Shown here piece after piece: positions 1-33,364 of a stretch of 64,000 bases of DNA. Each line of letters opens with the position of its first letter. Positions within the stretch are counted from its first letter, which is position 1. The position numbers and the translations under genes are program-made. The notes beneath the pieces were generated by a model. It did no database searches. It saw nothing but the letters and a program-made list of their open reading frames with translations, and was not told the origin of the DNA. Location of the stretch: NCBI RefSeq assembly GCF_947623445.1, contig NC_135242.1, positions 23,684,001 through 23,748,000 on the forward strand, read 5' to 3'. The stretch is from Clavelina lepadiformis (lineage: Eukaryota; Chordata; Ascidiacea; Aplousobranchia; Clavelinidae).

Positions 1-5
1 GCACA

Positions 6-87
6 GTTGTCGTGGCCGAGTGGTTAAGGCGACAGACTTGAAATATGTAAGGCTCTGTCCGCGTAGGTTCAACTCCTGCCGACAACG
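6..87 (+). pseudogene. tRNA-Ser(UGA) copy, degenerate
   Basis: This is an 82-nt class II tRNA with paired acceptor ends (GTTGTCG/CGACAAC), D-arm, long variable arm and UGA anticodon. The anticodon stem is mispaired (ACAGA against TATGT) and the B box reads GTTCAACTCC instead of GTTCGAATCC. Both defects argue that it is inactive. Confidence 0.8.
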
Positions 88-161
88 CGGGATTGAAATT
101 ATGTTTTCATAAGAGATTCGAGAAAAGTGCGAGTTTGTTTATTTGCATTGAACATTAAGCA

Positions 162-1205
162 TTAGCAACCCAATCAACAAAACTCAAAAGCTTAGAAAAT
201 ACGCTATCCAAAGATGTCAGCACACTCCATAGTTTCTTCGATAAATGGTACCTGAAAATGAATACCTCCAAAACCGTTACTTCTGTATTCCACCTGGACA
301 ACCAACGCGCAACCCAGACACTGAAAATACGCATTGGAAGCAAGCCGCTACCAGCAGAGCGTAACCCAAAATATCTTGGAGTAACACTAGACAGAACATT
401 GACTTACAGCAAACACACTGAAAATGTAGCGCAGAAATTGAAAACCAGGAACTCGATTCTGAAGAAACTCACTGGAACAACTTGGGGTGCTCACCAAACC
501 ACACTTAGAACATCAGCCTTGGCACTCTGCTATAGTGTAGCAGAATACTGTGCGCCAGTATGGGAACGCAGCAAACACACAAACAAAATTGACATTCAAC
601 TCAATAATACAATGGAAATTCTCTCAGGCTCCTTAAAATCAACACCCAAGATCTGGCTTCCAACCATGGCAGCTATAGCTCCACCACACCTCCGAAGACA
701 GGAAACCACCGAACGGATTCACAACCAAATTGACGACCTGCCCGACGACATTCCACTCAGTCAAGTCACTCAAAATGCACCCACCACAAAACGATTAAAA
801 AGCCGCAAACCTTTATATAACTCACACAACAGTAACTTCGATGTGCACACAGCCTGGAAAAAACCTACTGGCAAAAACACAAACCTCTTGGAGCAGATTT
901 GATAACCGACCCCACAAAAGCACTACCCGGTTTCTCAACATCCACACGAAAAATGTGGTCCACGGCAAACAGAATAAGATCTAGACAGGCAAGAACAGCT
1001 TCAAACTTATATTGATGGGGCTTAATCGACTCCCCAACATGCCCAGCATGTAACGAAGCCCCCTAAGATACGGACCACCTCGTGATAAAATGCCCCAATA
1101 CAAAGTTGACTGGAGGCTACAGCACCGTCAATGAATGCGGCCAAAACTTCAAAAACTGGATTGACAATATGATGGTGAACGTGTGAAGACCATACGACGA
1201 TGATG
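162..1205 (+). mobile_element. 5'-truncated LINE (non-LTR retrotransposon), RT C-terminus and 3' end
   Basis: The + strand encodes the C-terminal part of a jockey/CR1-type reverse transcriptase. A block around WYLKMNTSKT is followed by PKYLGVTLDRTLTY, then AEYCAPVWERS, in one frame to the stop at 900-902. Two further stops interrupt the region beyond, which still reads a zinc-knuckle-like CPAC...DHL...KCPN segment. The copy ends in a GATGAT-rich tail typical of some LINE 3' ends. It is bounded by a 15-bp direct repeat (147-161 and 1206-1220), the target site duplication, which lies in the spacer between tRNA-Ser repeats. The exact clade is not certain. Confidence 0.88.
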
Positions 1206-1222
1206 ATTGAACATTAAGCACA

Positions 1223-1304
1223 GTTGTCGTGGCCGAGTGGTTAAGGCGACAGACTTGAAATCTGTTGGGCTCTGCCCGCGTAGGTTCGAATCCTGCCGAC
1301 AACG
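1223..1304 (+). tRNA. tRNA-Ser(UGA), canonical fold
   Basis: All stems pair: acceptor GTTGTCG/CGACAAC, anticodon ACAGA/TCTGT around loop CTTGAAA, and T stem GTAGG/CCTGC with one G-T wobble. The A box (TGGCCGAGTGG) and B box (GGTTCGAATCC) match RNA polymerase III promoter consensus. A TTTT terminator lies about 16 nt downstream. This is one of the best functional candidates in the tandem array. Confidence 0.92.
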
Positions 1305-1380
1305 CGGAAGTGAAATTATGTTTTCATAAGAGATTCGAGAAAAGTGCAATCTTATTTATTTGCGTTGAACATTAAGCACA

Positions 1381-1462
1381 GTTGTCGTGGCCGAGTGGTT
1401 AAGGCGACAGACTTGAAATATGTAGGGCTCTGTCCGCGTAGGTTCGAATCCTGCCGACAACG
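1381..1462 (+). pseudogene. tRNA-Ser(UGA) copy with mismatched anticodon stem
   Basis: Same 82-nt tRNA as its neighbours with intact acceptor, A box and B box. The 3' anticodon strand reads TATGT, which cannot pair fully with ACAGA. Probably a decayed array member, although it could still be transcribed. Confidence 0.75.
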
Positions 1463-1538
1463 CGGAATTGAAATTATGTTTTCATAAGAGATTCGAGAAA
1501 AGTGCGATCTTATTTATTTGCGTTGAACATTAAGTACA

Positions 1539-1620
1539 GTTGTCGTGGCCGAGTGGTTAAGGCGACAGACTTGAAATATGTAAGGATCTGCCCGCGTAGG
1601 TTCGAATCCTCCCGACAACG
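1539..1620 (+). pseudogene. tRNA-Ser(UGA) copy, degenerate
   Basis: 82-nt array member with a mismatched anticodon stem, an altered variable arm (AAGGATCTG) and a disturbed T stem (TCCTCCCG). The acceptor stem is intact. Confidence 0.78.
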
Positions 1621-1696
1621 CGGGATTGAAATTATGTTTTCATAAGAGATTCGAGAAAAGTGCGGGTTTGTTTATTTGCCTTGAACATTAAGCACA

Positions 1697-1778
1697 GTTG
1701 TCGTGGCCGAGTGGTTAAGGCGACAGACTTGAAATCTGTTGGGCTCCGCCCGCGCAGGTTCGAATCCTGCCGACAACG
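1697..1778 (+). tRNA. tRNA-Ser(UGA), best-paired copy
   Basis: All stems pair, including a perfect T stem GCAGG/CCTGC. Anticodon UGA sits in loop CTTGAAA and the B box is consensus. A TTTT run about 16 nt downstream can end transcription. Of the array members this is the most convincing active gene. Confidence 0.93.
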
Positions 1779-1854
1779 CGGAAGTGAAATTATGTTTTCA
1801 TAAGAGATTCGAGAAAAGTGCAATCTTATTTACTTGCGTTGAACATTAAGCACA

Positions 1855-1936
1855 GTTGTCGTGGCCGAGTGGTTAAGGCGACAGACTTGAAGTATGTAGG
1901 GCTCTGTCCGCGTAGGTTCAATTCCTGCCGACAACG
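1855..1936 (+). pseudogene. tRNA-Ser(UGA) copy, degenerate
   Basis: 82-nt array member whose anticodon loop region reads CTTGAAG before TATGT, and whose B box is GTTCAATTCC. Both changes weaken folding and promoter function. Confidence 0.78.
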
Positions 1937-2012
1937 CGGGATTGAAATTATGTTTTCATAAGAGATTCGGGAAAAGTGCGAACTTATTTATTTGCGTTGA
2001 ACATTAAACACA

Positions 2013-2069
2013 GTTGTCATAGGGCCCTGCCCGAAATCTGAATCGAATCCCCGAATCCTGCCGACAACG
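2013..2069 (+). pseudogene. tRNA-Ser remnant
   Basis: The 5' GTTGTC and the 3' CCTGCCGACAACG ends of the tRNA-Ser are recognisable, but the D-arm and anticodon arm are lost. It sits exactly on the 158-bp spacing of the upstream copies. Confidence 0.75.
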
Positions 2070-2146
2070 CCGATATTACTTTTGCAATTTCAAATGGATA
2101 ATCGGAAATGCGCCATTTTATCTATTTCATCTATGCATTCAGCACA

Positions 2147-2228
2147 GTTGTCGTGGCCGAGTGGTTAAGGCGACAGACTCGAAATCTATTGGGCCCTACC
2201 CGCGTAGGTTCGAATCCCGCCGACAACG
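2147..2228 (+). tRNA. tRNA-Ser(CGA), probably weakened
   Basis: 82-nt tRNA-Ser with anticodon loop CTCGAAA, hence CGA, reading UCG codons. The acceptor stem pairs and the B box is GGTTCGAATCC. One C-A mismatch lies in the anticodon stem (ACAGA/TCTAT). The 3' spacer differs from that of the UGA copies, so it forms a second subfamily with the copy at 2306. Confidence 0.75.
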
Positions 2229-2305
2229 CCAATATTACTTTTGCAATTTCATATGGATATTCGGAAATGTGGCAGTTTATCTATTTCATCTATGCATTAG
2301 GCACA

Positions 2306-2387
2306 GTTGTCGTAGCGGAGTGGTTAAGACGACAGACTCGAAATCTGTTGGGCCCAGCCCGCGTACGTTCGAATCCCGCCGAAAAAG
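2306..2387 (+). pseudogene. tRNA-Ser(CGA) copy with broken acceptor stem
   Basis: Anticodon CGA and a well-paired anticodon stem (ACAGA/TCTGT). The 3' acceptor strand reads CGAAAAA, which no longer pairs with GTTGTCG, and the B box reads CGTTCGAATCC. It shares its flanks with the copy at 2147. Confidence 0.78.
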
Positions 2388-2570
2388 CCGATATTATTTT
2401 TGCAATTTAGTCTGGATATTGCATATGCGTATTCATAGGAATATGAAACTAGGGGGTGGGCGGAGGGTACTCATACTACAGTGGAAAAATCGGTGAACGT
2501 CGATCGACAAGATGCAGGTTCAAACCAGCGGGCCGCAGAGTGACGAGCCAACAACCGTTTGATGACCATA

Positions 2571-2744
2571 GACTGACGTCTAGGCCACCAGCTGGCTAGA
2601 CTGACGTCTAGGCCACCAGTTGGCTAGACTGACGTCTAGGCCTCCAGCTGGCTAGACTGACGTCTAGGCCACCAGTTGGCTAGACTGACGTCTAGGCCTC
2701 CAGCTGGCTAGACTGACGTCTAGGCCACCAGCTGGCTAGACTGA
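2571..2744. repeat. 28-bp minisatellite, six copies and a partial
   Basis: Six tandem copies of a 28-bp unit starting GACTGACGTCTAGGCC, plus a final partial GACTGA. Units differ only at two sites (CCACC or CCTCC, AGCTGG or AGTTGG), and these variants alternate, which suggests duplication of two-unit blocks. Each unit carries a palindromic GACGTC and CAGCTG or CAGTTG. Confidence 0.95.
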
Positions 2745-2995
2745 AAAAAACAGACTTGAAATCTGGAACGATATTTTTCAAATATAGGTGCTTAGGTTAA
2801 CTGTAAGTCAAACTGAAGGAAATAAGAGAAGTTTACTTTAGTACTTAAAATTTGGTTGAAAGTAGCTTATAGTTAACTAAGAAACTCTACTTTAACAAAG
2901 AACTGAAAAAAGTGGCAGCAAACGTTAACATAATTTTTTCATAAGAGATTCGAGAAAAGTGCGAGTTTATCTATTTGCAGTGCAAATTAAGCACA

Positions 2996-3077
2996 GTTGT
3001 CGTGACGGAATGATTAAGGCGACAGACTTGAAATTAGTTGGGCTCTGCCCGCGTAGGTTGGAATATTGCCGACAACG
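2996..3077 (+). pseudogene. tRNA-Ser(UGA) copy, degenerate
   Basis: The acceptor pairs, but the D-arm reads GTGACGGAATGA, the anticodon stem is changed to ATTAG and the B box to GGTTGGAATA. It matches the 6814-6895 copy on the opposite arm of the inverted repeat. Confidence 0.8.
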
Positions 3078-3153
3078 CGGAAGTGAAATTATTTTTTCAT
3101 AGGAGATTCGAGAAAAGTACGATTTTAACAATTTGCATTGTGAGTTAAGCACA

Positions 3154-3235
3154 GTTGTCGTGGCCGAGTGGTTAAGGCGACAGACTTGAAATCTGTTGGG
3201 CTCTGCCCGCGTAGGTTCGAATCCTGCAGACAACG
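3154..3235 (+). tRNA. tRNA-Ser(UGA) with one acceptor mismatch
   Basis: Anticodon arm, variable arm, A box and B box are canonical. The 3' acceptor strand reads AGACAAC instead of CGACAAC, which leaves the innermost pair open. It may be functional or slightly decayed. Confidence 0.7.
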
Positions 3236-3311
3236 CGAGATTGAAATTATGTTTTCATAAGAGATTCGAGAAAAGTGCGAGTTTGTTTATTTGGATTGAA
3301 CATTAAGCACA

Positions 3312-3386
3312 GTTGTTGTGGCCGAGTGGTTAAGGCGACAGACTTGAAATCTGTTGGGCTCTGCCCGCGCAGGTTCGAATCCTGCC
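3312..3386 (+). pseudogene. tRNA-Ser(UGA) truncated by the 8-bp satellite
   Basis: Canonical through the T loop (GGTTCGAATCCTGCCG), then the 3' acceptor strand is replaced by satellite sequence. The 5' end reads GTTGTTG. Without its 3' strand it cannot fold into a tRNA. Confidence 0.85.
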
Positions 3387-3608
3387 GTCTACTTAGCTAC
3401 TTAGCTACTTAGCTACTTAGCTACTTAGCTACTTAGCTACTTAGCTACTTAGCTACTTAGCTACTTAGCTACTTAGCTACTTAGCTACTTAGCTACTTAG
3501 CTACTTAGCTACTTAGCTACTTAGCTACTTAGCTACTTAGCTACTTAGCTACTTAGCTACTTAGCTACTTAGCTACTTAGCTACTTAGCTACTTAGCTAC
3601 TTAGCTAC
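3387..3608. repeat. 8-bp satellite block A (TTAGCTAC)n
   Basis: About 27 copies of the octamer, starting inside a tRNA-Ser and ending at the tail of a unit-0 remnant (GATTTTACTATCCGC). Stops occur in all six frames because the period is not a multiple of three. Confidence 0.97.
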
Positions 3609-3727
3609 GATTTTACTATCCGCTTCAATGCAATCCGACACAAAGTTAGCATATAAGTGAAGTAAAAATATCCAAAGCTACTGTCAGAAGTGGGATTCGA
3701 ACCCACGCCTCCCATCCTACTCCCACG
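3609..3727. repeat. Unit-0 tail: last ~120 bp of the macrosatellite unit
   Basis: Identical or nearly so to the ends of units 2 (14609-14728) and 3 (19065-19184). It shows that a fourth unit once lay to the left and lost all but its tail. It contains the tRNA 3' fragment at 3682-3727. Confidence 0.93.
3682..3727 (-). pseudogene. tRNA 3' fragment, Leu-type
   Basis: On the minus strand it reads a variable-arm remnant, then the T arm GTGGGTTCGAATCCCAC and the 3' acceptor strand TTCTGAC with discriminator A, as in animal tRNA-Leu(CAG/CAA). Everything 5' of the variable arm is missing, replaced by satellite from 3728. Confidence 0.8.
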
Positions 3728-6341
3728 CTACTTAGCTACTTAGCTACTTAGCTACTTAGCTACTTAGCTACTTAGCTACTTAGCTACTTAGCTACTTAGC
3801 TACTTAGCTACTTAGCTACTTAGCTACTTAGCTACTTAGCTACTTAGCTACTTAGCTACTTAGCTACTTAGCTACTTAGCTACTTAGCTACTTAGCTACT
3901 TAGCTACTTAGCTACTTAGCTACTTAGCTACTTAGCTACTTAGCTACTTAGCTACTTAGCTACTTAGCTACTTAGCTACTTAGCTACTTAGCTACTTAGC
4001 TACTTAGCTACTTAGCTACTTAGCTACTTAGCTACTTAGCTACTTAGCTACTTAGCTACTTAGCTACTTAGCTACTTAGCTACTTAGCTACTTAGCTACT
4101 TAGCTACTTAGCTACTTAGCTACTTAGCTACTTAGCTACTTAGCTACTTAGCTACTTAGCTACTTAGCTACTTAGCTACTTAGCTACTTAGCTACTTAGC
4201 TACTTAGCTACTTAGCTACTTAGCTACTTAGCTACTTAGCTACTTAGCTACTTAGCTACTTAGCTACTTAGCTACTTAGCTACTTAGCTACTTAGCTACT
4301 TAGCTACTTAGCTACTTAGCTACTTAGCTACTTAGCTACTTAGCTACTTAGCTACTTAGCTACTTAGCTACTTAGCTACTTAGCTACTTAGCTACTTAGC
4401 TACTTAGCTACTTAGCTACTTAGCTACTTAGCTACTTAGCTACTTAGCTACTTAGCTACTTAGCTACTTAGCTACTTAGCTACTTAGCTACTTAGCTACT
4501 TAGCTACTTAGCTACTTAGCTACTTAGCTACTTAGCTACTTAGCTACTTAGCTACTTAGCTACTTAGCTACTTAGCTACTTAGCTACTTAGCTACTTAGC
4601 TACTTAGCTACTTAGCTACTTAGCTACTTAGCTACTTAGCTACTTAGCTACTTAGCTACTTAGCTACTTAGCTACTTAGCTACTTAGCTACTTAGCTACT
4701 TAGCTACTTAGCTACTTAGCTACTTAGCTACTTAGCTACTTAGCTACTTAGCTACTTAGCTACTTAGCTACTTAGCTACTTAGCTACTTAGCTACTTAGC
4801 TACTTAGCTACTTAGCTACTTAGCTACTTAGCTACTTAGCTACTTAGCTACTTAGCTACTTAGCTACTTAGCTACTTAGCTACTTAGCTACTTAGCTACT
4901 TAGCTACTTAGCTACTTAGCTACTTAGCTACTTAGCTACTTAGCTACTTAGCTACTTAGCTACTTAGCTACTTAGCTACTTAGCTACTTAGCTACTTAGC
5001 TACTTAGCTACTTAGCTACTTAGCTACTTAGCTACTTAGCTACTTAGCTACTTAGCTACTTAGCTACTTAGCTACTTAGCTACTTAGCTACTTAGCTACT
5101 TAGCTACTTAGCTACTTAGCTACTTAGCTACTTAGCTACTTAGCTACTTAGCTACTTAGCTACTTAGCTACTTAGCTACTTAGCTACTTAGCTACTTAGC
5201 TACTTAGCTACTTAGCTACTTAGCTACTTAGCTACTTAGCTACTTAGCTACTTAGCTACTTAGCTACTTAGCTACTTAGCTACTTAGCTACTTAGCTACT
5301 TAGCTACTTAGCTACTTAGCTACTTAGCTACTTAGCTACTTAGCTACTTAGCTACTTAGCTACTTAGCTACTTAGCTACTTAGCTACTTAGCTACTTAGC
5401 TACTTAGCTACTTAGCTACTTAGCTACTTAGCTACTTAGCTACTTAGCTACTTAGCTACTTAGCTACTTAGCTACTTAGCTACTTAGCTACTTAGCTACT
5501 TAGCTACTTAGCTACTTAGCTACTTAGCTACTTAGCTACTTAGCTACTTAGCTACTTAGCTACTTAGCTACTTAGCTACTTAGCTACTTAGCTACTTAGC
5601 TACTTAGCTACTTAGCTACTTAGCTACTTAGCTACTTAGCTACTTAGCTACTTAGCTACTTAGCTACTTAGCTACTTAGCTACTTAGCTACTTAGCTACT
5701 TAGCTACTTAGCTACTTAGCTACTTAGCTACTTAGCTACTTAGCTACTTAGCTACTTAGCTACTTAGCTACTTAGCTACTTAGCTACTTAGCTACTTAGC
5801 TACTTAGCTACTTAGCTACTTAGCTACTTAGCTACTTAGCTACTTAGCTACTTAGCTACTTAGCTACTTAGCTACTTAGCTACTTAGCTACTTAGCTACT
5901 TAGCTACTTAGCTACTTAGCTACTTAGCTACTTAGCTACTTAGCTACTTAGCTACTTAGCTACTTAGCTACTTAGCTACTTAGCTACTTAGCTACTTAGC
6001 TACTTAGCTACTTAGCTACTTAGCTACTTAGCTACTTAGCTACTTAGCTACTTAGCTACTTAGCTACTTAGCTACTTAGCTACTTAGCTACTTAGCTACT
6101 TAGCTACTTAGCTACTTAGCTACTTAGCTACTTAGCTACTTAGCTACTTAGCTACTTAGCTACTTAGCTACTTAGCTACTTAGCTACTTAGCTACTTAGC
6201 TACTTAGCTACTTAGCTACTTAGCTACTTAGCTACTTAGCTACTTAGCTACTTAGCTACTTAGCTACTTAGCTACTTAGCTACTTAGCTACTTAGCTACT
6301 TAGCTACTTAGCTACTTAGCTACTTAGCTACTTAGCTACTT
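3728..6341. repeat. 8-bp satellite block B (TTAGCTAC)n, 2.6 kb
   Basis: About 327 copies of the octamer without a substitution or indel that I can see; the repeat phase is constant line by line. It runs from a truncated tRNA-Leu-type 3' fragment to a truncated tRNA-Ser, both on the minus strand. Confidence 0.97.
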
Positions 6342-6345
6342 CTTA

Positions 6346-6420
6346 GGCAGGAGTCGAACCTACGCGGGCAAAGACCAACAGATTTCAAGTCTGTCGCCTT
6401 AACCACTCGGCCACAACAAC
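6346..6420 (-). pseudogene. tRNA-Ser(UGA) with 3' end lost to satellite
   Basis: Minus-strand tRNA-Ser, canonical anticodon arm, GTTGTTG 5' end. The 3' acceptor strand is missing where block B ends at 6341; a short CTTAG shared with the satellite lies at the junction. Confidence 0.85.
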
Positions 6421-6496
6421 TGTGCCTAATGTTCAATGGAAATAAATAAGAGGGTTCTTTTCTCGAATCTCTGATGAAAACATAATTTTAATCCCG

Positions 6497-6578
6497 CGTT
6501 GTCGGCAGGACTCGAACCTACGCGGGCAGAGCCCAACAGATTTCAAGTATGTCGCCTTAACCACTCGGCCACGACAAC
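6497..6578 (-). pseudogene. tRNA-Ser(UGA) copy, anticodon stem mismatch
   Basis: Minus-strand 82-nt copy with paired acceptor. The anticodon stem reads ACATA against TCTGT, and the B box reads GGTTCGAGTCC. Confidence 0.78.
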
Positions 6579-6654
6579 TGTGCCTAATGTTCAATGGAAA
6601 TAAATAAGATGGTACTTTTCTCGAATCTCTTATGAAAACATAATTTCAATCCCG

Positions 6655-6736
6655 CGTTGTCGGCAGGATTCGAACCTACGCGGGTAGACCCCAACAGATT
6701 TCAAATCTGTCGCCTTAACCACTCGGCCACGACAAC
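6655..6736 (-). tRNA. tRNA-Ser(UGA), canonical fold
   Basis: Minus-strand copy with all stems paired: acceptor GTTGTCG/CGACAAC, anticodon ACAGA/TCTGT around TTTGAAA, consensus B box. It recurs unchanged in units 2 and 3, so this gene has been multiplied with the macrosatellite. Confidence 0.88.
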
Positions 6737-6813
6737 TGTGCTTAATGTTCAACGCAAATAAATAAAATCGTACTTTTTCTCGAATTTCTTATGAAAACAT
6801 AATTTTAATTCCG

Positions 6814-6895
6814 CGTTGTCGGCAATATTCGAACCTACGCGGGCAGAGCCCAACTAATTTCAAGTCTGTCGCCTTAACCACTCCGTCACGACATC
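6814..6895 (-). pseudogene. tRNA-Ser(UGA) copy, degenerate
   Basis: Minus-strand copy with 5' GATGTCG (acceptor mismatch), altered D-arm (GTGACGGAG), disrupted anticodon stem and T stem ending AATATTGCC. It pairs with the 2996 copy across the inverted repeat. Confidence 0.8.
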
Positions 6896-8128
6896 TGTGC
6901 TTAATTTGCAATGCAAATAGACAAACTCGCACTTTTCTCGAATCTCTTATGAAAATATAATGTTAACATTTGCTGCCATTTTTTTCAGCTCCTTGTTAAA
7001 CTAGAGTTTCCTAGTTAACTATAAGTTAGTTTCAACCAAATTTTAAGTACTAAAGTAAACTTCTGTTATTTCTTTTAGTTTGACTTACTGTTAACCTAAG
7101 CGCCTATATTTGAAAAATATCGTTCCGGTTCATTTTTATGCTGAGTTCAAATTAAATTCGATAAGTTTTAAAAATCTGCCTTCAACAACATTACCTTCTA
7201 AAAGTATGAAACTAAAGATGTCCAATAATTATATTTATTGTAATGGGAAAAGCTGAAACAAAGCAGTTGAATAATTGTAGCTGTCTCACAAAACGCGTAT
7301 AAGTGTTGCGTCATAACAATCGTGCACGAAAGACAACAAGAAATGAGAGCGTTGAAATTCTAACTAAACGAAATTGGCAGTTTTTGTTCCTGCTTACTTG
7401 GCAAGTATAATATCCAGTTAGTTGACGACCTACCACCCAGGACCAACTGTTTGAGTGAAGCAGTTGAGCACCGAGGCAGGCCTGTTAACAAGTAAGTTTT
7501 TTTACTCTTTTTTGAGCCATTCCAGCACTACCAGAAGATCTAAGATATTGTTAACTATACAAAAGCAATGCCATGGGAAGAAATATGAGAATAAAACGAC
7601 AATTTTGAGCCGGCAACACAGTGATTATTACGTGTTCGCACTCAATGCGTCATATTAAAAAAAGTAAAAATTTTCCGGTCCAATGCGCATGTGACGTCGA
7701 TGTGGAGTAGTTCGTCGTTGCTTTGACGACAGCTGGTTCCAGGTCTAGGCTAAGTTGTAAATTTTGTGTGGGTTTGAATTTTTGGTTTTTTGGAGTATTT
7801 GTCATAAAGTTTTAAGCTAAAAACTTGTTGTAAAGTGTAGGCAACTGTTATAGAAAACTGAGTACATGGATTTTGTGCAAATTAAGACTGTAGACAGACA
7901 TTACCTAGGTCTCGTTGCAAGCCAAAATTCAGGTTAGGTTTATGATATACTTTTGCGTTGGTAGCTTCTTGATTTAATGTATTTTGCATTGGAAAGCCTA
8001 TCTCTTTGGTCCCCTTAAGAACAAGGACCACAGCTAAAATAGCTTTACATGTAAAAAGACATGGAAATGAGACTCTAGTACTCTAGTAGTAGTTTAGTAG
8101 TACAGTAGTAGTAGTAGTTAGCTAGATT

Positions 8129-8225
8129 CCACGTCTCCATTCGGAGACCAGAACACCCTAGAGCCGCACAAATCGGCTAAGCCTCTGCTTGAGTCAGGCG
8201 CCTTAGACCACTCGGCCATCCTGAC
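8129..8225 (-). pseudogene. tRNA-Leu(CAA) 5' part with intron, T arm lost
   Basis: The minus strand reads GTCAGGATGGCCGAGTGG, then an anticodon loop with CAA followed by a roughly 30-nt intron-like insertion, as is usual for animal tRNA-Leu(CAA). The variable arm TCTCCGAATGGAGA follows, then CGTGG, where similarity stops. The T arm and acceptor 3' strand are replaced by a TAGTAG low-complexity tract (about 8075-8128). One mismatch lies in the anticodon stem. Confidence 0.85.
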
Positions 8226-8676
8226 CTCTATGTTTTGTATGCATCTCAGTTCTTACAATACTTACCACAAAACCAGGAAAGGGCTTAATTTAGCATTAAT
8301 ATCACGGTTGTTTTTCCGCGTGGTTGAATAAATTCACAGATGCATGCAACGATGTTTAATCGAGGATAAGTACAACGAACCAGGCAAAGTTGTTTCGTTC
8401 TAGTTTCACTTCATGGAAGACGTAGACGATGATGTTAACGGTATGCTCAATTTAGGATGAAACTATGTACAGTTAAGTGATAAGATTTTAAAAATATTAA
8501 CAATCCATTGCGCCACAGAGACAAACTCATACCAACCTTTAACATTTTCACGCTTTAAAAAACAATCCAGCCTAGAAAGTTGGAAAAAGTTACTTGAACA
8601 AACCGTTTCTGAACTAAGACATAACTTTCTCAATGTTCGATTTTACTATCCGCTTCAATGCAATCCGACACAAAGT

Positions 8677-11600
8677 TTAGCTACTTAGCTACTTAGCTAC
8701 TTAGCTACTTAGCTACTTAGCTACTTAGCTACTTAGCTACTTAGCTACTTAGCTACTTAGCTACTTAGCTACTTAGCTACTTAGCTACTTAGCTACTTAG
8801 CTACTTAGCTACTTAGCTACTTAGCTACTTAGCTACTTAGCTACTTAGCTACTTAGCTACTTAGCTACTTAGCTACTTAGCTACTTAGCTACTTAGCTAC
8901 TTAGCTACTTAGCTACTTAGCTACTTAGCTACTTAGCTACTTAGCTACTTAGCTACTTAGCTACTTAGCTACTTAGCTACTTAGCTACTTAGCTACTTAG
9001 CTACTTAGCTACTTAGCTACTTAGCTACTTAGCTACTTAGCTACTTAGCTACTTAGCTACTTAGCTACTTAGCTACTTAGCTACTTAGCTACTTAGCTAC
9101 TTAGCTACTTAGCTACTTAGCTACTTAGCTACTTAGCTACTTAGCTACTTAGCTACTTAGCTACTTAGCTACTTAGCTACTTAGCTACTTAGCTACTTAG
9201 CTACTTAGCTACTTAGCTACTTAGCTACTTAGCTACTTAGCTACTTAGCTACTTAGCTACTTAGCTACTTAGCTACTTAGCTACTTAGCTACTTAGCTAC
9301 TTAGCTACTTAGCTACTTAGCTACTTAGCTACTTAGCTACTTAGCTACTTAGCTACTTAGCTACTTAGCTACTTAGCTACTTAGCTACTTAGCTACTTAG
9401 CTACTTAGCTACTTAGCTACTTAGCTACTTAGCTACTTAGCTACTTAGCTACTTAGCTACTTAGCTACTTAGCTACTTAGCTACTTAGCTACTTAGCTAC
9501 TTAGCTACTTAGCTACTTAGCTACTTAGCTACTTAGCTACTTAGCTACTTAGCTACTTAGCTACTTAGCTACTTAGCTACTTAGCTACTTAGCTACTTAG
9601 CTACTTAGCTACTTAGCTACTTAGCTACTTAGCTACTTAGCTACTTAGCTACTTAGCTACTTAGCTACTTAGCTACTTAGCTACTTAGCTACTTAGCTAC
9701 TTAGCTACTTAGCTACTTAGCTACTTAGCTACTTAGCTACTTAGCTACTTAGCTACTTAGCTACTTAGCTACTTAGCTACTTAGCTACTTAGCTACTTAG
9801 CTACTTAGCTACTTAGCTACTTAGCTACTTAGCTACTTAGCTACTTAGCTACTTAGCTACTTAGCTACTTAGCTACTTAGCTACTTAGCTACTTAGCTAC
9901 TTAGCTACTTAGCTACTTAGCTACTTAGCTACTTAGCTACTTAGCTACTTAGCTACTTAGCTACTTAGCTACTTAGCTACTTAGCTACTTAGCTACTTAG
10001 CTACTTAGCTACTTAGCTACTTAGCTACTTAGCTACTTAGCTACTTAGCTACTTAGCTACTTAGCTACTTAGCTACTTAGCTACTTAGCTACTTAGCTAC
10101 TTAGCTACTTAGCTACTTAGCTACTTAGCTACTTAGCTACTTAGCTACTTAGCTACTTAGCTACTTAGCTACTTAGCTACTTAGCTACTTAGCTACTTAG
10201 CTACTTAGCTACTTAGCTACTTAGCTACTTAGCTACTTAGCTACTTAGCTACTTAGCTACTTAGCTACTTAGCTACTTAGCTACTTAGCTACTTAGCTAC
10301 TTAGCTACTTAGCTACTTAGCTACTTAGCTACTTAGCTACTTAGCTACTTAGCTACTTAGCTACTTAGCTACTTAGCTACTTAGCTACTTAGCTACTTAG
10401 CTACTTAGCTACTTAGCTACTTAGCTACTTAGCTACTTAGCTACTTAGCTACTTAGCTACTTAGCTACTTAGCTACTTAGCTACTTAGCTACTTAGCTAC
10501 TTAGCTACTTAGCTACTTAGCTACTTAGCTACTTAGCTACTTAGCTACTTAGCTACTTAGCTACTTAGCTACTTAGCTACTTAGCTACTTAGCTACTTAG
10601 CTACTTAGCTACTTAGCTACTTAGCTACTTAGCTACTTAGCTACTTAGCTACTTAGCTACTTAGCTACTTAGCTACTTAGCTACTTAGCTACTTAGCTAC
10701 TTAGCTACTTAGCTACTTAGCTACTTAGCTACTTAGCTACTTAGCTACTTAGCTACTTAGCTACTTAGCTACTTAGCTACTTAGCTACTTAGCTACTTAG
10801 CTACTTAGCTACTTAGCTACTTAGCTACTTAGCTACTTAGCTACTTAGCTACTTAGCTACTTAGCTACTTAGCTACTTAGCTACTTAGCTACTTAGCTAC
10901 TTAGCTACTTAGCTACTTAGCTACTTAGCTACTTAGCTACTTAGCTACTTAGCTACTTAGCTACTTAGCTACTTAGCTACTTAGCTACTTAGCTACTTAG
11001 CTACTTAGCTACTTAGCTACTTAGCTACTTAGCTACTTAGCTACTTAGCTACTTAGCTACTTAGCTACTTAGCTACTTAGCTACTTAGCTACTTAGCTAC
11101 TTAGCTACTTAGCTACTTAGCTACTTAGCTACTTAGCTACTTAGCTACTTAGCTACTTAGCTACTTAGCTACTTAGCTACTTAGCTACTTAGCTACTTAG
11201 CTACTTAGCTACTTAGCTACTTAGCTACTTAGCTACTTAGCTACTTAGCTACTTAGCTACTTAGCTACTTAGCTACTTAGCTACTTAGCTACTTAGCTAC
11301 TTAGCTACTTAGCTACTTAGCTACTTAGCTACTTAGCTACTTAGCTACTTAGCTACTTAGCTACTTAGCTACTTAGCTACTTAGCTACTTAGCTACTTAG
11401 CTACTTAGCTACTTAGCTACTTAGCTACTTAGCTACTTAGCTACTTAGCTACTTAGCTACTTAGCTACTTAGCTACTTAGCTACTTAGCTACTTAGCTAC
11501 TTAGCTACTTAGCTACTTAGCTACTTAGCTACTTAGCTACTTAGCTACTTAGCTACTTAGCTACTTAGCTACTTAGCTACTTAGCTACTTAGCTACTTAG

Positions 11601-12206
11601 CTACTTAGCTACTTAGCTACTTAGCTACTTAGCTACTTAGCTACTTAGCTACTTAGCTACTTAGCTACTTAGCTACTTAGCTACTTAGCTACTTAGCTAC
11701 TTAGCTACTTAGCTACTTAGCTACTTAGCTACTTAGCTACTTAGCTACTTAGCTACTTAGCTACTTAGCTACTTAGCTACTTAGCTACTTAGCTACTTAG
11801 CTACTTAGCTACTTAGCTACTTAGCTACTTAGCTACTTAGCTACTTAGCTACTTAGCTACTTAGCTACTTAGCTACTTAGCTACTTAGCTACTTAGCTAC
11901 TTAGCTACTTAGCTACTTAGCTACTTAGCTACTTAGCTACTTAGCTACTTAGCTACTTAGCTACTTAGCTACTTAGCTACTTAGCTACTTAGCTACTTAG
12001 CTACTTAGCTACTTAGCTACTTAGCTACTTAGCTACTTAGCTACTTAGCTACTTAGCTACTTAGCTACTTAGCTACTTAGCTACTTAGCTACTTAGCTAC
12101 TTAGCTACTTAGCTACTTAGCTACTTAGCTACTTAGCTACTTAGCTACTTAGCTACTTAGCTACTTAGCTACTTAGCTACTTAGCTACTTAGCTACTTAG
12201 CTACTT
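8677..12206. repeat. 8-bp satellite block C (TTAGCTAC)n, 3.5 kb
   Basis: About 441 perfect copies, the longest block. On its left it joins the unit 1 tail at CACAAAGT, without the tRNA 3' fragment found at other blocks. On its right it ends in the same truncated tRNA-Ser as block B. Confidence 0.97.
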
Positions 12207-12210
12207 CTTA

Positions 12211-12285
12211 GGCAGGAGTCGAACCTACGCGGGCAAAGACCAACAGATTTCAAGTCTGTCGCCTTAACCACTCGGCCACAACAAC
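12211..12285 (-). pseudogene. tRNA-Ser(UGA) with 3' end lost to satellite (unit 2)
   Basis: Same as 6346-6420. Confidence 0.85.
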
Positions 12286-12361
12286 TGTGCCTAATGTTCA
12301 ATGGAAATAAATAAGAGGGTTCTTTTCTCGAATCTCTGATGAAAACATAATTTTAATCCCG

Positions 12362-12443
12362 CGTTGTCGGCAGGACTCGAACCTACGCGGGCAGAGCCCA
12401 ACAGATTTCAAGTATGTCGCCTTAACCACTCGGCCACGACAAC
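12362..12443 (-). pseudogene. tRNA-Ser(UGA) copy, anticodon stem mismatch (unit 2)
   Basis: Same as 6497-6578. Confidence 0.78.
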
Positions 12444-12519
12444 TGTGCCTAATGTTCAATGGAAATAAATAAGATGGTACTTTTCTCGAATCTCTTATGA
12501 AAACATAATTTCAATCCCG

Positions 12520-12601
12520 CGTTGTCGGCAGGATTCGAACCTACGCGGGTAGACCCCAACAGATTTCAAATCTGTCGCCTTAACCACTCGGCCACGACAA
12601 C
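12520..12601 (-). tRNA. tRNA-Ser(UGA), canonical fold (unit 2)
   Basis: Same sequence and pairing as 6655-6736. Confidence 0.88.
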
Positions 12602-12678
12602 TGTGCTTAATGTTCAACGCAAATAAATAAAATCGTACTTTTTCTCGAATTTCTTATGAAAACATAATTTTAATTCCG

Positions 12679-12808
12679 CGTTGTCGGCAATATTCGAACC
12701 TACGCGGGCAGAGCCCAACTAATTTCAAGTCTCGGCAATATTCGAACCTACGCGGGCAGAGCCCAACTAATTTCAAGTCTGTCGCCTTAACCACTCCGTC
12801 ACGACATC
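12679..12808 (-). pseudogene. tRNA-Ser copy with 48-bp internal duplication (unit 2)
   Basis: Corresponds to 6814-6895 but 48 bp longer. The segment from the T arm through the anticodon loop (CGGCAATATTCGAACC to TTTCAAGTCT) is present twice in tandem. It cannot fold as a tRNA. Confidence 0.9.
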
Positions 12809-14041
12809 TGTGCTTAATTTGCAATGCAAATAGACAAACTCGCACTTTTCTCGAATCTCTTATGAAAATATAATGTTAACATTTGCTGCCATTTTTTTCA
12901 GCTCCTTGTTAAACTAGAGTTTCCTAGTTAACTATAAGTTAGTTTCAACCAAATTTTAAGTACTAAAGTAAACTTCTGTTATTTCTTTTAGTTTGACTTA
13001 CTGTTAACCTAAGCGCCTATATTTGAAAAATATCGTTCCGGTTCATTTTTATGCTGAGTTCAAATTAAATTCGATAAGTTTTAAAAATCTGCCTTCAACA
13101 ACATTACCTTCTAAAAGTATGAAACTAAAGATGTCCAATAATTATATTTATTGTAATGGGAAAAGCTGAAACAAAGCAGTTGAATAATTGTAGCTGTCTC
13201 ACAAAACGCGTATAAGTGTTGCGTCATAACAATCGTGCACGAAAGACAACAAGAAATGAGAGCGTTGAAATTCTAACTAAACGAAATTGGCAGTTTTTGT
13301 TCCTGCTTACTTGGCAAGTATAATATCCAGTTAGTTGACGACCTACCACCCAGGACCAACTGTTTGAGTGAAGCAGTTGAGCACCGAGGCAGGCCTGTTA
13401 ACAAGTAAGTTTTTTTACTCTTTTTTGAGCCATTCCAGCACTACCAGAAGATCTAAGATATTGTTAACTATACAAAAGCAATGCCATGGGAAGAAATATG
13501 AGAATAAAACGACAATTTTGAGCCGGCAACACAGTGATTATTACGTGTTCGCACTCAATGCGTCATATTAAAAAAAGTAAAAATTTTCCGGTCCAATGCG
13601 CATGTGACGTCGATGTGGAGTAGTTCGTCGTTGCTTTGACGACAGCTGGTTCCAGGTCTAGGCTAAGTTGTAAATTTTGTGTGGGTTTGAATTTTTGGTT
13701 TTTTGGAGTATTTGTCATAAAGTTTTAAGCTAAAAACTTGTTGTAAAGTGTAGGCAACTGTTATAGAAAACTGAGTACATGGATTTTGTGCAAATTAAGA
13801 CTGTAGACAGACATTACCTAGGTCTCGTTGCAAGCCAAAATTCAGGTTAGGTTTATGATATACTTTTGCGTTGGTAGCTTCTTGATTTAATGTATTTTGC
13901 ATTGAAAAGCCTATCTCTTTGGTCCCCTTAAGAACAAGGACCACAGCTAAAATAGCTTTACATGTAAAAAGACATGGAAATGAGACTCTAGTACTCTAGT
14001 AGTAGTTTAGTAGTACAGTAGTAGTAGTAGTTAGCTAGATT

Positions 14042-14138
14042 CCACGTCTCCATTCGGAGACCAGAACACCCTAGAGCCGCACAAATCGGCTAAGCCTCTG
14101 CTTGAGTCAGGCGCCTTAGACCACTCGGCCATCCTGAC
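14042..14138 (-). pseudogene. tRNA-Leu(CAA) 5' part with intron (unit 2)
   Basis: Same as 8129-8225, with the same loss of T arm and 3' acceptor strand to the TAGTAG tract. Confidence 0.85.
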
Positions 14139-14419
14139 CTCTATGTTTTGTATGCATCTCAGTTCTTACAATACTTACCACAAAACCAGGAAAGGGCTTA
14201 ATTTAGCATTAATATCACGGTTGTTTTTCCGCGTGGTTGAATAAATTCACAGATGCATGCAACGATGTTTAATCGAGGATAAGTACAACGAACCAGGCAA
14301 AGTTGTTTCGTTCTAGTTTCACTTCATGGAAGACGTAGACGATGATGTTAACGGTATGCTCAATTTAGGATGAAACTATGTACAGTTAAGTGATAAGATT
14401 TTAAAAATATTAAGCCAAT

Positions 14420-14493
14420 CATCCCTGCCGGGACTCGAAGCGGGAACCTCTTGATTAGAAGTCCAGCGCGCTAATCCATTGCGCCACAGAGAC
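14420..14493 (-). tRNA. tRNA-Arg(UCU)
   Basis: The minus strand reads GTCTCTGTGGCGCAATGG with anticodon loop CTTCTAA (UCU) and T arm GGTTCCCGCTTCGAGTCCCG... ending in GATG. Length is 74 nt with no intron. The acceptor stem pairs with G-T wobbles. It lies in the unit tail, followed by no strong T run, so activity is uncertain. Confidence 0.82.
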
Positions 14494-14682
14494 AAACTCA
14501 TACCAACCTTTAACATTTTCACGCTTTAAAAAACAATCCAGCCTAGAAAGTTGGAAAAAGTTACTTGAACAAACCGTTTCTGAACTAAGACATAACTTTC
14601 TCAATGTTCGATTTTACTATCCGCTTCAATGCAATCCGACACAAAGTTAGCATATAAGTGAAGTAAAAATATCCAAAGCTAC

Positions 14683-14728
14683 TGTCAGAAGTGGGATTCG
14701 AACCCACGCCTCCCATCCTACTCCCACG
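14683..14728 (-). pseudogene. tRNA 3' fragment, Leu-type (unit 2)
   Basis: Same as 3682-3727; satellite block D begins at the next base. Confidence 0.8.
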
Positions 14729-16710
14729 CTACTTAGCTACTTAGCTACTTAGCTACTTAGCTACTTAGCTACTTAGCTACTTAGCTACTTAGCTACTTAG
14801 CTACTTAGCTACTTAGCTACTTAGCTACTTAGCTACTTAGCTACTTAGCTACTTAGCTACTTAGCTACTTAGCTACTTAGCTACTTAGCTACTTAGCTAC
14901 TTAGCTACTTAGCTACTTAGCTACTTAGCTACTTAGCTACTTAGCTACTTAGCTACTTAGCTACTTAGCTACTTAGCTACTTAGCTACTTAGCTACTTAG
15001 CTACTTAGCTACTTAGCTACTTAGCTACTTAGCTACTTAGCTACTTAGCTACTTAGCTACTTAGCTACTTAGCTACTTAGCTACTTAGCTACTTAGCTAC
15101 TTAGCTACTTAGCTACTTAGCTACTTAGCTACTTAGCTACTTAGCTACTTAGCTACTTAGCTACTTAGCTACTTAGCTACTTAGCTACTTAGCTACTTAG
15201 CTACTTAGCTACTTAGCTACTTAGCTACTTAGCTACTTAGCTACTTAGCTACTTAGCTACTTAGCTACTTAGCTACTTAGCTACTTAGCTACTTAGCTAC
15301 TTAGCTACTTAGCTACTTAGCTACTTAGCTACTTAGCTACTTAGCTACTTAGCTACTTAGCTACTTAGCTACTTAGCTACTTAGCTACTTAGCTACTTAG
15401 CTACTTAGCTACTTAGCTACTTAGCTACTTAGCTACTTAGCTACTTAGCTACTTAGCTACTTAGCTACTTAGCTACTTAGCTACTTAGCTACTTAGCTAC
15501 TTAGCTACTTAGCTACTTAGCTACTTAGCTACTTAGCTACTTAGCTACTTAGCTACTTAGCTACTTAGCTACTTAGCTACTTAGCTACTTAGCTACTTAG
15601 CTACTTAGCTACTTAGCTACTTAGCTACTTAGCTACTTAGCTACTTAGCTACTTAGCTACTTAGCTACTTAGCTACTTAGCTACTTAGCTACTTAGCTAC
15701 TTAGCTACTTAGCTACTTAGCTACTTAGCTACTTAGCTACTTAGCTACTTAGCTACTTAGCTACTTAGCTACTTAGCTACTTAGCTACTTAGCTACTTAG
15801 CTACTTAGCTACTTAGCTACTTAGCTACTTAGCTACTTAGCTACTTAGCTACTTAGCTACTTAGCTACTTAGCTACTTAGCTACTTAGCTACTTAGCTAC
15901 TTAGCTACTTAGCTACTTAGCTACTTAGCTACTTAGCTACTTAGCTACTTAGCTACTTAGCTACTTAGCTACTTAGCTACTTAGCTACTTAGCTACTTAG
16001 CTACTTAGCTACTTAGCTACTTAGCTACTTAGCTACTTAGCTACTTAGCTACTTAGCTACTTAGCTACTTAGCTACTTAGCTACTTAGCTACTTAGCTAC
16101 TTAGCTACTTAGCTACTTAGCTACTTAGCTACTTAGCTACTTAGCTACTTAGCTACTTAGCTACTTAGCTACTTAGCTACTTAGCTACTTAGCTACTTAG
16201 CTACTTAGCTACTTAGCTACTTAGCTACTTAGCTACTTAGCTACTTAGCTACTTAGCTACTTAGCTACTTAGCTACTTAGCTACTTAGCTACTTAGCTAC
16301 TTAGCTACTTAGCTACTTAGCTACTTAGCTACTTAGCTACTTAGCTACTTAGCTACTTAGCTACTTAGCTACTTAGCTACTTAGCTACTTAGCTACTTAG
16401 CTACTTAGCTACTTAGCTACTTAGCTACTTAGCTACTTAGCTACTTAGCTACTTAGCTACTTAGCTACTTAGCTACTTAGCTACTTAGCTACTTAGCTAC
16501 TTAGCTACTTAGCTACTTAGCTACTTAGCTACTTAGCTACTTAGCTACTTAGCTACTTAGCTACTTAGCTACTTAGCTACTTAGCTACTTAGCTACTTAG
16601 CTACTTAGCTACTTAGCTACTTAGCTACTTAGCTACTTAGCTACTTAGCTACTTAGCTACTTAGCTACTTAGCTACTTAGCTACTTAGCTACTTAGCTAC
16701 TTAGCTACTT
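14729..16710. repeat. 8-bp satellite block D (TTAGCTAC)n, 2.0 kb
   Basis: About 248 perfect copies, with the same left (tRNA-Leu-type fragment) and right (tRNA-Ser) junctions as block B. Confidence 0.97.
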
Positions 16711-16714
16711 CTTA

Positions 16715-16789
16715 GGCAGGAGTCGAACCTACGCGGGCAAAGACCAACAGATTTCAAGTCTGTCGCCTTAACCACTCGGCCACAACAAC
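16715..16789 (-). pseudogene. tRNA-Ser(UGA) with 3' end lost to satellite (unit 3)
   Basis: Same as 6346-6420. Confidence 0.85.
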
Positions 16790-16865
16790 TGTGCCTAATG
16801 TTCAATGGAAATAAATAAGAGGGTTCTTTTCTCGAATCTCTGATGAAAACATAATTTTAATCCCG

Positions 16866-16947
16866 CGTTGTCGGCAGGACTCGAACCTACGCGGGCAGAG
16901 CCCAACAGATTTCAAGTATGTCGCCTTAACCACTCGGCCACGACAAC
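16866..16947 (-). pseudogene. tRNA-Ser(UGA) copy, anticodon stem mismatch (unit 3)
   Basis: Same as 6497-6578. Confidence 0.78.
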
Positions 16948-17023
16948 TGTGCCTAATGTTCAATGGAAATAAATAAGATGGTACTTTTCTCGAATCTCTT
17001 ATGAAAACATAATTTCAATCCCG

Positions 17024-17105
17024 CGTTGTCGGCAGGATTCGAACCTACGCGGGTAGACCCCAACAGATTTCAAATCTGTCGCCTTAACCACTCGGCCACG
17101 ACAAC
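17024..17105 (-). tRNA. tRNA-Ser(UGA), canonical fold (unit 3)
   Basis: Same sequence and pairing as 6655-6736. Confidence 0.88.
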
Positions 17106-17182
17106 TGTGCTTAATGTTCAACGCAAATAAATAAAATCGTACTTTTTCTCGAATTTCTTATGAAAACATAATTTTAATTCCG

Positions 17183-17264
17183 CGTTGTCGGCAATATTCG
17201 AACCTACGCGGGCAGAGCCCAACTAATTTCAAGTCTGTCGCCTTAACCACTCCGTCACGACATC
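17183..17264 (-). pseudogene. tRNA-Ser(UGA) copy, degenerate (unit 3)
   Basis: Same as 6814-6895, without the duplication seen in unit 2. Confidence 0.8.
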
Positions 17265-18497
17265 TGTGCTTAATTTGCAATGCAAATAGACAAACTCGCA
17301 CTTTTCTCGAATCTCTTATGAAAATATAATGTTAACATTTGCTGCCATTTTTTTCAGCTCCTTGTTAAACTAGAGTTTCCTAGTTAACTATAAGTTAGTT
17401 TCAACCAAATTTTAAGTACTAAAGTAAACTTCTGTTATTTCTTTTAGTTTGACTTACTGTTAACCTAAGCGCCTATATTTGAAAAATATCGTTCCGGTTC
17501 ATTTTTATGCTGAGTTCAAATTAAATTCGATAAGTTTTAAAAATCTGCCTTCAACAACATTACCTTCTAAAAGTATGAAACTAAAGATGTCCAATAATTA
17601 TATTTATTGTAATGGGAAAAGCTGAAACAAAGCAGTTGAATAATTGTAGCTGTCTCACAAAACGCGTATAAGTGTTGCGTCATAACAATCGTGCACGAAA
17701 GACAACAAGAAATGAGAGCGTTGAAATTCTAACTAAACGAAATTGGCAGTTTTTGTTCCTGCTTACTTGGCAAGTATAATATCCAGTTAGTTGACGACCT
17801 ACCACCCAGGACCAACTGTTTGAGTGAAGCAGTTGAGCACCGAGGCAGGCCTGTTAACAAGTAAGTTTTTTTACTCTTTTTTGAGCCATTCCAGCACTAC
17901 CAGAAGATCTAAGATATTGTTAACTATACAAAAGCAATGCCATGGGAAGAAATATGAGAATAAAACGACAATTTTGAGCCGGCAACACAGTGATTATTAC
18001 GTGTTCGCACTCAATGCGTCATATTAAAAAAAGTAAAAATTTTCCGGTCCAATGCGCATGTGACGTCGATGTGGAGTAGTTCGTCGTTGCTTTGACGACA
18101 GCTGGTTCCAGGTCTAGGCTAAGTTGTAAATTTTGTGTGGGTTTGAATTTTTGGTTTTTTGGAGTATTTGTCATAAAGTTTTAAGCTAAAAACTTGTTGT
18201 AAAGTGTAGGCAACTGTTATAGAAAACTGAGTACATGGATTTTGTGCAAATTAAGACTGTAGACAGACATTACCTAGGTCTCGTTGCAAGCCAAAATTCA
18301 GGTTAGGTTTATGATATACTTTTGCGTTGGTAGCTTCTTGATTTAATGTATTTTGCATTGAAAAGCCTATCTCTTTGGTCCCCTTAAGAACAAGGACCAC
18401 AGCTAAAATAGCTTTACATGTAAAAAGACATGGAAATGAGACTCTAGTACTCTAGTAGTAGTTTAGTAGTACAGTAGTAGTAGTAGTTAGCTAGATT

Positions 18498-18594
18498 CCA
18501 CGTCTCCATTCGGAGACCAGAACACCCTAGAGCCGCACAAATCGGCTAAGCCTCTGCTTGAGTCAGGCGCCTTAGACCACTCGGCCATCCTGAC
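18498..18594 (-). pseudogene. tRNA-Leu(CAA) 5' part with intron (unit 3)
   Basis: Same as 8129-8225. Confidence 0.85.
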
Positions 18595-18875
18595 CTCTAT
18601 GTTTTGTATGCATCTCAGTTCTTACAATACTTACCACAAAACCAGGAAAGGGCTTAATTTAGCATTAATATCACGGTTGTTTTTCCGCGTGGTTGAATAA
18701 ATTCACAGATGCATGCAACGATGTTTAATCGAGGATAAGTACAACGAACCAGGCAAAGTTGTTTCGTTCTAGTTTCACTTCATGGAAGACGTAGACGATG
18801 ATGTTAACGGTATGCTCAATTTAGGATGAAACTATGTACAGTTAAGTGATAAGATTTTAAAAATATTAAGCCAAT

Positions 18876-18949
18876 CATCCCTGCCGGGACTCGAAGCGGG
18901 AACCTCTTGATTAGAAGTCCAGCGCGCTAATCCATTGCGCCACAGAGAC
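18876..18949 (-). tRNA. tRNA-Arg(UCU) (unit 3)
   Basis: Same 74-nt sequence as 14420-14493. Confidence 0.82.
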
Positions 18950-19138
18950 AAACTCATACCAACCTTTAACATTTTCACGCTTTAAAAAACAATCCAGCCT
19001 AGAAAGTTGGAAAAAGTTACTTGAACAAACCGTTTCTGAACTAAGACATAACTTTCTCAATGTTCGATTTTACTATCCGCTTCAATGCAATCCGACACAA
19101 AGTTAGCATATAAGTGAAGTAAAAATATCCAAAGCTAC

Positions 19139-19184
19139 TGTCAGAAGTGGGATTCGAACCCACGCCTCCCATCCTACTCCCACG
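19139..19184 (-). pseudogene. tRNA 3' fragment, Leu-type (unit 3)
   Basis: Same as 3682-3727; satellite block E begins at the next base. Confidence 0.8.
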
Positions 19185-19589
19185 CTACTTAGCTACTTAG
19201 CTACTTAGCTACTTAGCTACTTAGCTACTTAGCTACTTAGCTACTTAGCTACTTAGCTACTTAGCTACTTAGCTACTTAGCTACTTAGCTACTTAGCTAC
19301 TTAGCTACTTAGCTACTTAGCTACTTAGCTACTTAGCTACTTAGCTACTTAGCTACTTAGCTACTTAGCTACTTAGCTACTTAGCTACTTAGCTACTTAG
19401 CTACTTAGCTACTTAGCTACTTAGCTACTTAGCTACTTAGCTACTTAGCTACTTAGCTACTTAGCTACTTAGCTACTTAGCTACTTAGCTACTTAGCTAC
19501 TTAGCTACTTAGCTACTTAGCTACTTAGCTACTTAGCTACTTAGCTACTTAGCTACTTAGCTACTTAGCTACTTAGCTACTTAGCTACT
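19185..19589. repeat. 8-bp satellite block E (TTAGCTAC)n, end of the domain
   Basis: About 50 perfect copies. It ends at TTAGCTACTAACCAG, where the satellite passes directly into a branch-point-like CTAAC and an AG that could be a splice acceptor for the next exon. Confidence 0.96.
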
Positions 19590-33055: not shown

Positions 33056-33364
33056 TCATATCTTCGTCTGCTTCTAAAGGTTACAAAATCTACAACATAT
33101 CTGGTTGTTGTAAAACTAATTTGCTGAACTACTGCGAAATTAAAACATTTGTTTTTAGCACAGCGTTCTAAAACTCTAAAAAAAAATTCTGATGTAATAC
33201 GTTTTAAAATTCTTACATAATACTGTTCAGAACTGATGACTGCACCCTTTGAGTGAAGAGAATCTCCGGGTATTTTGTCATTAATTGGTGCAGATGGCAT
33301 ATCTACAATGAAATGATGGTTTATCGTTCCTTAGCCTGTAAGGACGACCACTTCAATTACAAAG
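33056..33364. other. No gene recognised
   Basis: AT-rich. The minus strand is open for 96 codons (33010-33300) but resembles nothing I know; it may be the remains of the upstream part of the hAT. Confidence 0.4.

Follow-up and report, generated by a model that had tools for sequence, protein, structure and literature searches.

The ascidian Clavelina lepadiformis carries a family of octamer satellites which, as far as our survey patterns reach, is found only in or near the clusters of transfer RNA (tRNA) genes for leucine, arginine and serine in its genome. This family was followed from a single stretch of 64,000 bases, referred to here as the window (contig NC_135242.1, C3:23684001-23748000), through the searched genome of 209.06 megabases (Mb) in 95 contigs. 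The satellite blocks of the window have been copied, several junctions of the family lie in or at tRNA genes, and the joins show at most one base of overlap, or filler bases.

The reading that we favor, with a probability of about one half, is that breaks in tRNA genes were joined several times to a satellite of the tRNA clusters, by end joining, and that the satellite then grew by slippage or unequal exchange. Our confidence was slightly lowered to this value because one edge adjoins an intact tRNA-Arg gene and because one array escaped the survey patterns. A broader and more tentative proposal is that the tRNA gene clusters of C. lepadiformis may repeatedly capture satellite DNA, or perhaps even give rise to it, with breaks close to the T arm and the 3' end being joined again and again to an expanding octamer. 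If true, an entire satellite family would be tied to RNA polymerase III genes. The value of the system is that animal satellite-tRNA junctions are known at base level, and that its ten clusters in one genome form a small family for testing satellite origin and movement.

Satellite edges and a duplicated unit in the window

Five perfect (CTACTTAG)n blocks, all on the plus strand, span positions 3389-19589 of the window and sum to 8754 bases. These are block A (3389-3608, 220 bases), block B (3727-6341, 2615 bases), block C (8677-12206, 3530 bases), block D (14728-16710, 1983 bases) and block E (19184-19589, 406 bases), the last being additional to the four described in the first-pass annotation of this DNA. 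B, D and E share one left edge, without a difference over the 30 bases compared. Each copy consists of the 3' fragment of a minus-strand tRNA-Leu gene, comprising the T arm and part of the variable arm (3682-3712, 14683-14713 and 19139-19169), followed by 14 filler bases (3713-3726, 14714-14727 and 19170-19183) and then by satellite. The common start of B and D in a tRNA-Leu, claimed earlier, was thus confirmed and extends to E. B, C and D in turn share the same right edge, and here also the earlier description holds: a minus-strand tRNA-Ser gene (6346-6420, 12211-12285 and 16715-16789) is retained up to the end of the T stem, and satellite replaces its 3' acceptor strand. Block A begins, as had been proposed, within a plus-strand tRNA-Ser (3311-3387, from ARAGORN and join scoring), which is truncated after CCTGCCG, one base further than at B, C and D, and is followed by one extra T. 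It forms a junction of its own, in which the satellite strand is reversed with respect to the tRNA. The right edge of block E lies in flanking DNA without a recognised tRNA.

Additionally, a minus-strand tRNA-Leu pseudogene with an intron (14042-14150, end coordinate approximate) is broken in its T arm and continues into TAGCTAAC-like sequence. The truncated tRNA-Ser copies at B, C and D and the intron-bearing tRNA-Leu were not called by ARAGORN, which was run in bacterial mode; both were assigned by comparison with intact units and by eye. We take the intron-bearing gene, with its CAA anticodon, to be tRNA-Leu. Intact tRNA-Ser genes are also present in the window. Arrays of tRNA-Ser units of about 158 bases, at 1-3394 and 6346-6966, lie on opposite strands facing each other, forming a large inverted repeat that encloses blocks A and B. 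Between tRNA-Ser genes, the sequence at 170-1205 gives the impression, on reading, of belonging to the coding region of a retrotransposon.

The blocks are separated by near-identical spacers: S1 after B (6342-8676), S2 after C (12207-14727) and S3 after D (16711-19183), with a 118-base remnant of the spacer right end between A and B (3609-3726, plus strand). The pseudogene described above, in S2, is present in S1 and S3 too. In the spacer alignment no substitution separates S2 from S3, and S2 has one extra 48-base tandem duplication. Relative to S3, S1 has two substitutions, of which one is next to a deletion and possibly an alignment effect, and deletions of 58 bases at a tRNA-Arg gene and of 80 bases at the right end. 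The left edge of block C is unlike that of B, D and E because this 80-base deletion created it, the tRNA-Leu fragment being among the missing bases. The right end of block A is likewise a deletion into the duplicated unit. The 58-base deletion (8500-8501) has removed most of the tRNA-Arg that the sister spacers keep, extending from within the gene to a few bases past its 3' end.

Since the spacers are nearly identical, the right edges of B, C and D count as a single junction, and so do the left edges of B, D and E. The window is read as one rearranged unit, made of a tRNA-Leu 3' fragment, octamer satellite, a truncated tRNA-Ser array and spacer. This unit was tandemly duplicated very recently and afterwards trimmed by small deletions. 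Among the copies compared, array length ranges from 406 to 3530 bases and the spacers are almost unchanged (0-2 substitutions), so array length changes much faster than mutations accumulate in the flanks. Perfect arrays of up to 3.5 kilobases (kb) and near-identical duplicates are difficult to assemble, and collapsed or misjoined repeats were considered as their source. We judge such an artefact very unlikely, given that like junctions recur on six chromosomes in different sequences and that the published assembly is credited, in the excerpt used here, with a quality value (QV) of 67.4 (PMC10884593).

Junctions across the genome and their competing origins

The genome survey gave 27 matches to the left-edge pattern, 30 to the right-edge pattern and 28 to a wider family pattern, with none in the reversed controls; they overlook arrays that are shorter, arrays of other units, and any edge whose base eight positions out matches by coincidence. 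The matches group into ten clusters, namely the window (C3) and nine others at C1 24.98 Mb, C2 22.402 and 22.409 Mb, C6 18.42 and 19.72 Mb, C7 17.72-17.76 and 18.72 Mb, and C8 0.62 and 1.32 Mb. Every cluster lies in or near matched tRNA units or shows tRNA sequence in its flank. The nine places outside the window are within, or at most about 4 kb from, clusters of tRNA-Leu, tRNA-Arg or tRNA-Ser, the furthest being C2 22.402 Mb, at about 4 kb from the nearest listed tRNA unit and with a right flank common to the neighbouring cluster. A two-unit pattern matched five times, with four copies in a C7 tRNA-Leu pseudogene and one within the C8 array.

This setting is one of tandem tRNA arrays, in 158-base tRNA-Ser units and Leu/Arg units of about 662 bases; tRNA-Ser starts alone number 1337 in the genome at up to one mismatch. 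Scanning for B-box sites gave 3289 (134 in the reversed control), from which tRNA bodies, at an assumed 90 bases each, cover about 0.14% of the genome. A search for octamers no more than 30 bases from a B box gave 19 matches, with two in the reversed control. Sixteen of the 19 belong to the window (9), C6 19.7 Mb (4), C7 18.7 Mb (1) and C8 0.62 Mb (2); the remaining three are isolated, at C1 18.9, C3 19.0 and C4 22.0 Mb, and are near the control level.

Flanks were read at nine of the ten clusters, the window included and C8 1.32 Mb left out, and were compared with Leu/Arg and Ser units only. Eight of these nine show an array edge placed within a tRNA gene or at the 3' end of one. The further satellite-tRNA junctions for which the first-pass annotation advised a search do exist: together with those of the window, eight distinct junctions were counted on six chromosomes, in three kinds of tRNA. 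They are Ser 72 (C6 19.7 Mb), Ser 75 and Ser 76 (window), Leu 51 (C1), Leu 56 (common to C2, C6 and C7), Leu 88 (window), Leu 106 (C7 and the window pseudogene, the join being placed by eye alone), and a point about two bases past the 3' end of tRNA-Arg (common to C7 18.7 Mb and C8 0.62 Mb). Edge positions were taken from join scoring, edge count and eye, as alignments entering the repeats shifted some of them (Leu 43 for 56). In seven of the eight the edge is within a truncated tRNA gene; the Arg edge is just outside its gene. ARAGORN found no tRNA in loci L083-L088, L090 and L091, and an intact tRNA-Arg in L092. The gene in L089, called tRNA-Ala, reads by eye as a tRNA-Arg with a short internal duplication. 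C1 carries intact Leu/Arg units, and C8 has an intact tRNA-Leu at 17.76 Mb. No uninterrupted Ser-Leu pair was seen in the loci read, in which no search was aimed at such a pair.

The main rival, and a serious one, holds that the satellite arose once in a tRNA cluster and was carried by duplication and recombination among these highly repeated clusters, gene density explaining where its edges fall. We regard this as a real possibility. The arrays are located in tRNA clusters, and tRNA genes already occupy 29% of the Leu/Arg unit and 53% of the Ser unit. The junctions at Leu 56 and at the Arg 3' end recur between clusters, and the left flanks of the C7 18.7 Mb and C8 0.62 Mb arrays match at 96.7% over 366 bases. 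Against copying as the whole account are at least six different breakpoints across the three tRNA kinds, the opposite orientation in which block A is joined, and the placement of edges. Ten distinct edges fall in tRNA-unit DNA, a count that leaves out nine edges without recognised tRNA and a C7 tRNA-Ser end with about 1.5 octamer units, found by reading outside the survey. Eight of the ten are in tRNA (p 0.005). The proportion becomes 8/8 (p 0.0003) when two secondary deletions are left out, and 7/9 (p 0.013) when a two-unit array is dropped.

Several observations weigh against repeated breakage in tRNA genes. The matching junctions of the window are mostly copies of two junctions, carried by the recently duplicated unit, and two of the ten edges are window spacer edges from later deletions. 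The tRNA-Arg adjoining the C8 array is intact (ARAGORN), and counting the Arg edge as outside lowers the proportion to 7/10 (p 0.027), or to 6/9 (p 0.062) if the two-unit array is dropped as well. These edge tests were made after the fact and assume independent events. Placement at tRNA is strong relative to the whole genome and modest within the clusters. Another nine distinct edges are set in DNA that has no recognised Leu, Ser or Arg sequence, and among the nine clusters read there is one, C2 22.402 Mb, without any tRNA edge. The orientation of the satellite is the same at seven of the eight tRNA junctions, which fits the spread of one satellite. Finally, an array of unit CCAGTTAG at about C2 22.417 Mb (L053), in the same tRNA-Leu cluster, escaped the survey patterns, so other octamer variants may lie elsewhere unseen.

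The proposal of the first-pass annotation, that the satellite grew at breaks within tRNA genes, thus stands in part. Arrays at tRNA clusters and eight distinct junctions speak for it; the window copies, the modest bias and the shared orientation speak against it. The same annotation named, as one part of what would refute the idea, that all junctions be copies of one event. This is largely what the window holds, and several distinct junctions were found outside it. Break-and-rejoin and spread by copying may also have acted together.

Joins, proposed breakage and known precedents

Scripted scoring of the joins gave an overlap of one base at the C7 Arg, C8 Arg and shared Leu 56 junctions and of none at C6 Ser 72. 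Filler of one base was scored at A, of four at the right edges of B, C and D, and of 14 at the left edges of B, D and E. The script is unable to score imperfect arrays, for which its values of -22 (C1) and -17 (a short C7 array) are meaningless. The two later deletions in the window show one base of overlap by eye. Joins with at most one base of overlap, or with filler, fit end joining with little homology. The 14-base filler contains a second CCCACGC, 20 bases from the first, and could have a templated origin.

The extra CTTAG directly after block B, like that at the other right junctions, had been suggested as microhomology. This suggestion was not upheld. By eye the right edge, CTACTTcttag, corresponds to two satellite units minus five bases; the script permits no such deletion and for this reason scored the bases as four of filler. 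The best reading of CTTAG is as satellite sequence that ends the array after a five-base loss, and the measurable overlaps do not exceed one base.

Repeated placement at tRNA genes might also be expected of a mobile element with an octamer core, inserting into or beside them, as retroelements are known to do in yeast and Dictyostelium according to the excerpts considered. We find this very unlikely. Insertion with target-site duplication is unsupported, as ten of the eleven arrays tested have no direct repeat of four or more bases at both edges, and the eleventh, the imperfect C1 array, was uninformative, yielding satellite words alone. There is also no common terminus, edges being common only to a few pairs or groups.

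Under the favored account of breakage and rejoining, double-strand breaks would occur in tRNA genes within the clusters, possibly caused by RNA polymerase III transcription and stalled replication forks. The broken tRNA ends would be joined to satellite ends by end joining, and the arrays would then grow by slippage or unequal exchange. The closest precedent for short repeats associated with tRNA arrays is Entamoeba histolytica and E. dispar, where tandem tRNA arrays likewise carry short tandem repeats, with units mostly of 7-12 bases and some of 8 (PMC2652664). The authors suggest strand slippage, and describe tRNA genes as barriers to replication forks and hot spots of recombination (PMC2652664). 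The Entamoeba repeats are located in the spacers between intact tRNA genes and are part of the array unit; here, unlike in Entamoeba, arrays reach up to 3.5 kb, occur in few places and have edges that cut into tRNA genes, and the organism is of a different kingdom. Evolutionary breakpoints in yeast favour tRNA genes (PMC2675101); that work, as excerpted, concerns gene order and intergenic regions, and the present edges are resolved at base level. Clusters of tRNA genes have been linked to instability (PMC2888827). In yeasts, replication forks are known to pause at tRNA genes (reviewed in PMC8998199), and by analogy such pausing could supply the cause of breakage here. In the open-access literature, subscription papers being outside its scope, no description of this octamer satellite was found.

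Octamer variants and neighbouring repeats

Four units of CTACTTAG gave 1075 matches in the genome, all 1075 in the window. The exact octamer at this length is thus confined to the window, and it is the sister octamer CTAGTTAG, of which it is a one-base variant, that is linked with tRNA genes elsewhere, a link whose absence the first-pass annotation had counted as a point against its idea. Homologous spacers on C7 lack CTACTTAG and carry CTAGTTAG. On C6 (L085) a single CTACTTAG unit is embedded in a CTAGTTAG array, in line with an origin of the window octamer by one substitution. Octamer arrays at L079 4332-6860, L080 2892-3932 and L053 3427-3577 are built of blocks of one- or two-base variants (CTAGTGAG, CTAGTCGG, CTGGTCAG, CTAGTCAG and CCAGTTAG). 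Every block is nearly uniform, which points to local turnover of the octamer unit.

Hairpins formed by the octamer strand could in principle drive breakage and growth, leaving the tRNA genes incidental. The variant CTGGTCAG does fold better than its shuffles (z -3.84), and CTAGTTAG does so weakly (z -0.87). The window octamer and its complement fold no better than theirs (z -0.10 and 0.28); hairpin-driven growth is unsupported for the window octamer, and we consider this explanation extremely unlikely. The octamer was compared by eye with the tRNA-Leu intron and the tRNA-Arg trailer as possible sources, and the likeness was too weak to claim an origin from either.

An unrelated 28-base minisatellite (TAGACTGACGTCTAGGCCACCAGCTGGC) occupies window positions 2569-2744 and L081 6308-6993. 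Its right edge in L081, near 6990, enters a tRNA-Ser, with GGC common to both. It has 434 genome matches at up to two mismatches; among the 100 listed, 96 are at C2 2.00-2.04 Mb, three at C3 22.42 Mb and one at C8 3.06 Mb. The C2 and C3 regions both contain tRNA-Ser arrays. Further along the window, at 33364-33679, a 162-base unit is perfectly duplicated in tandem.

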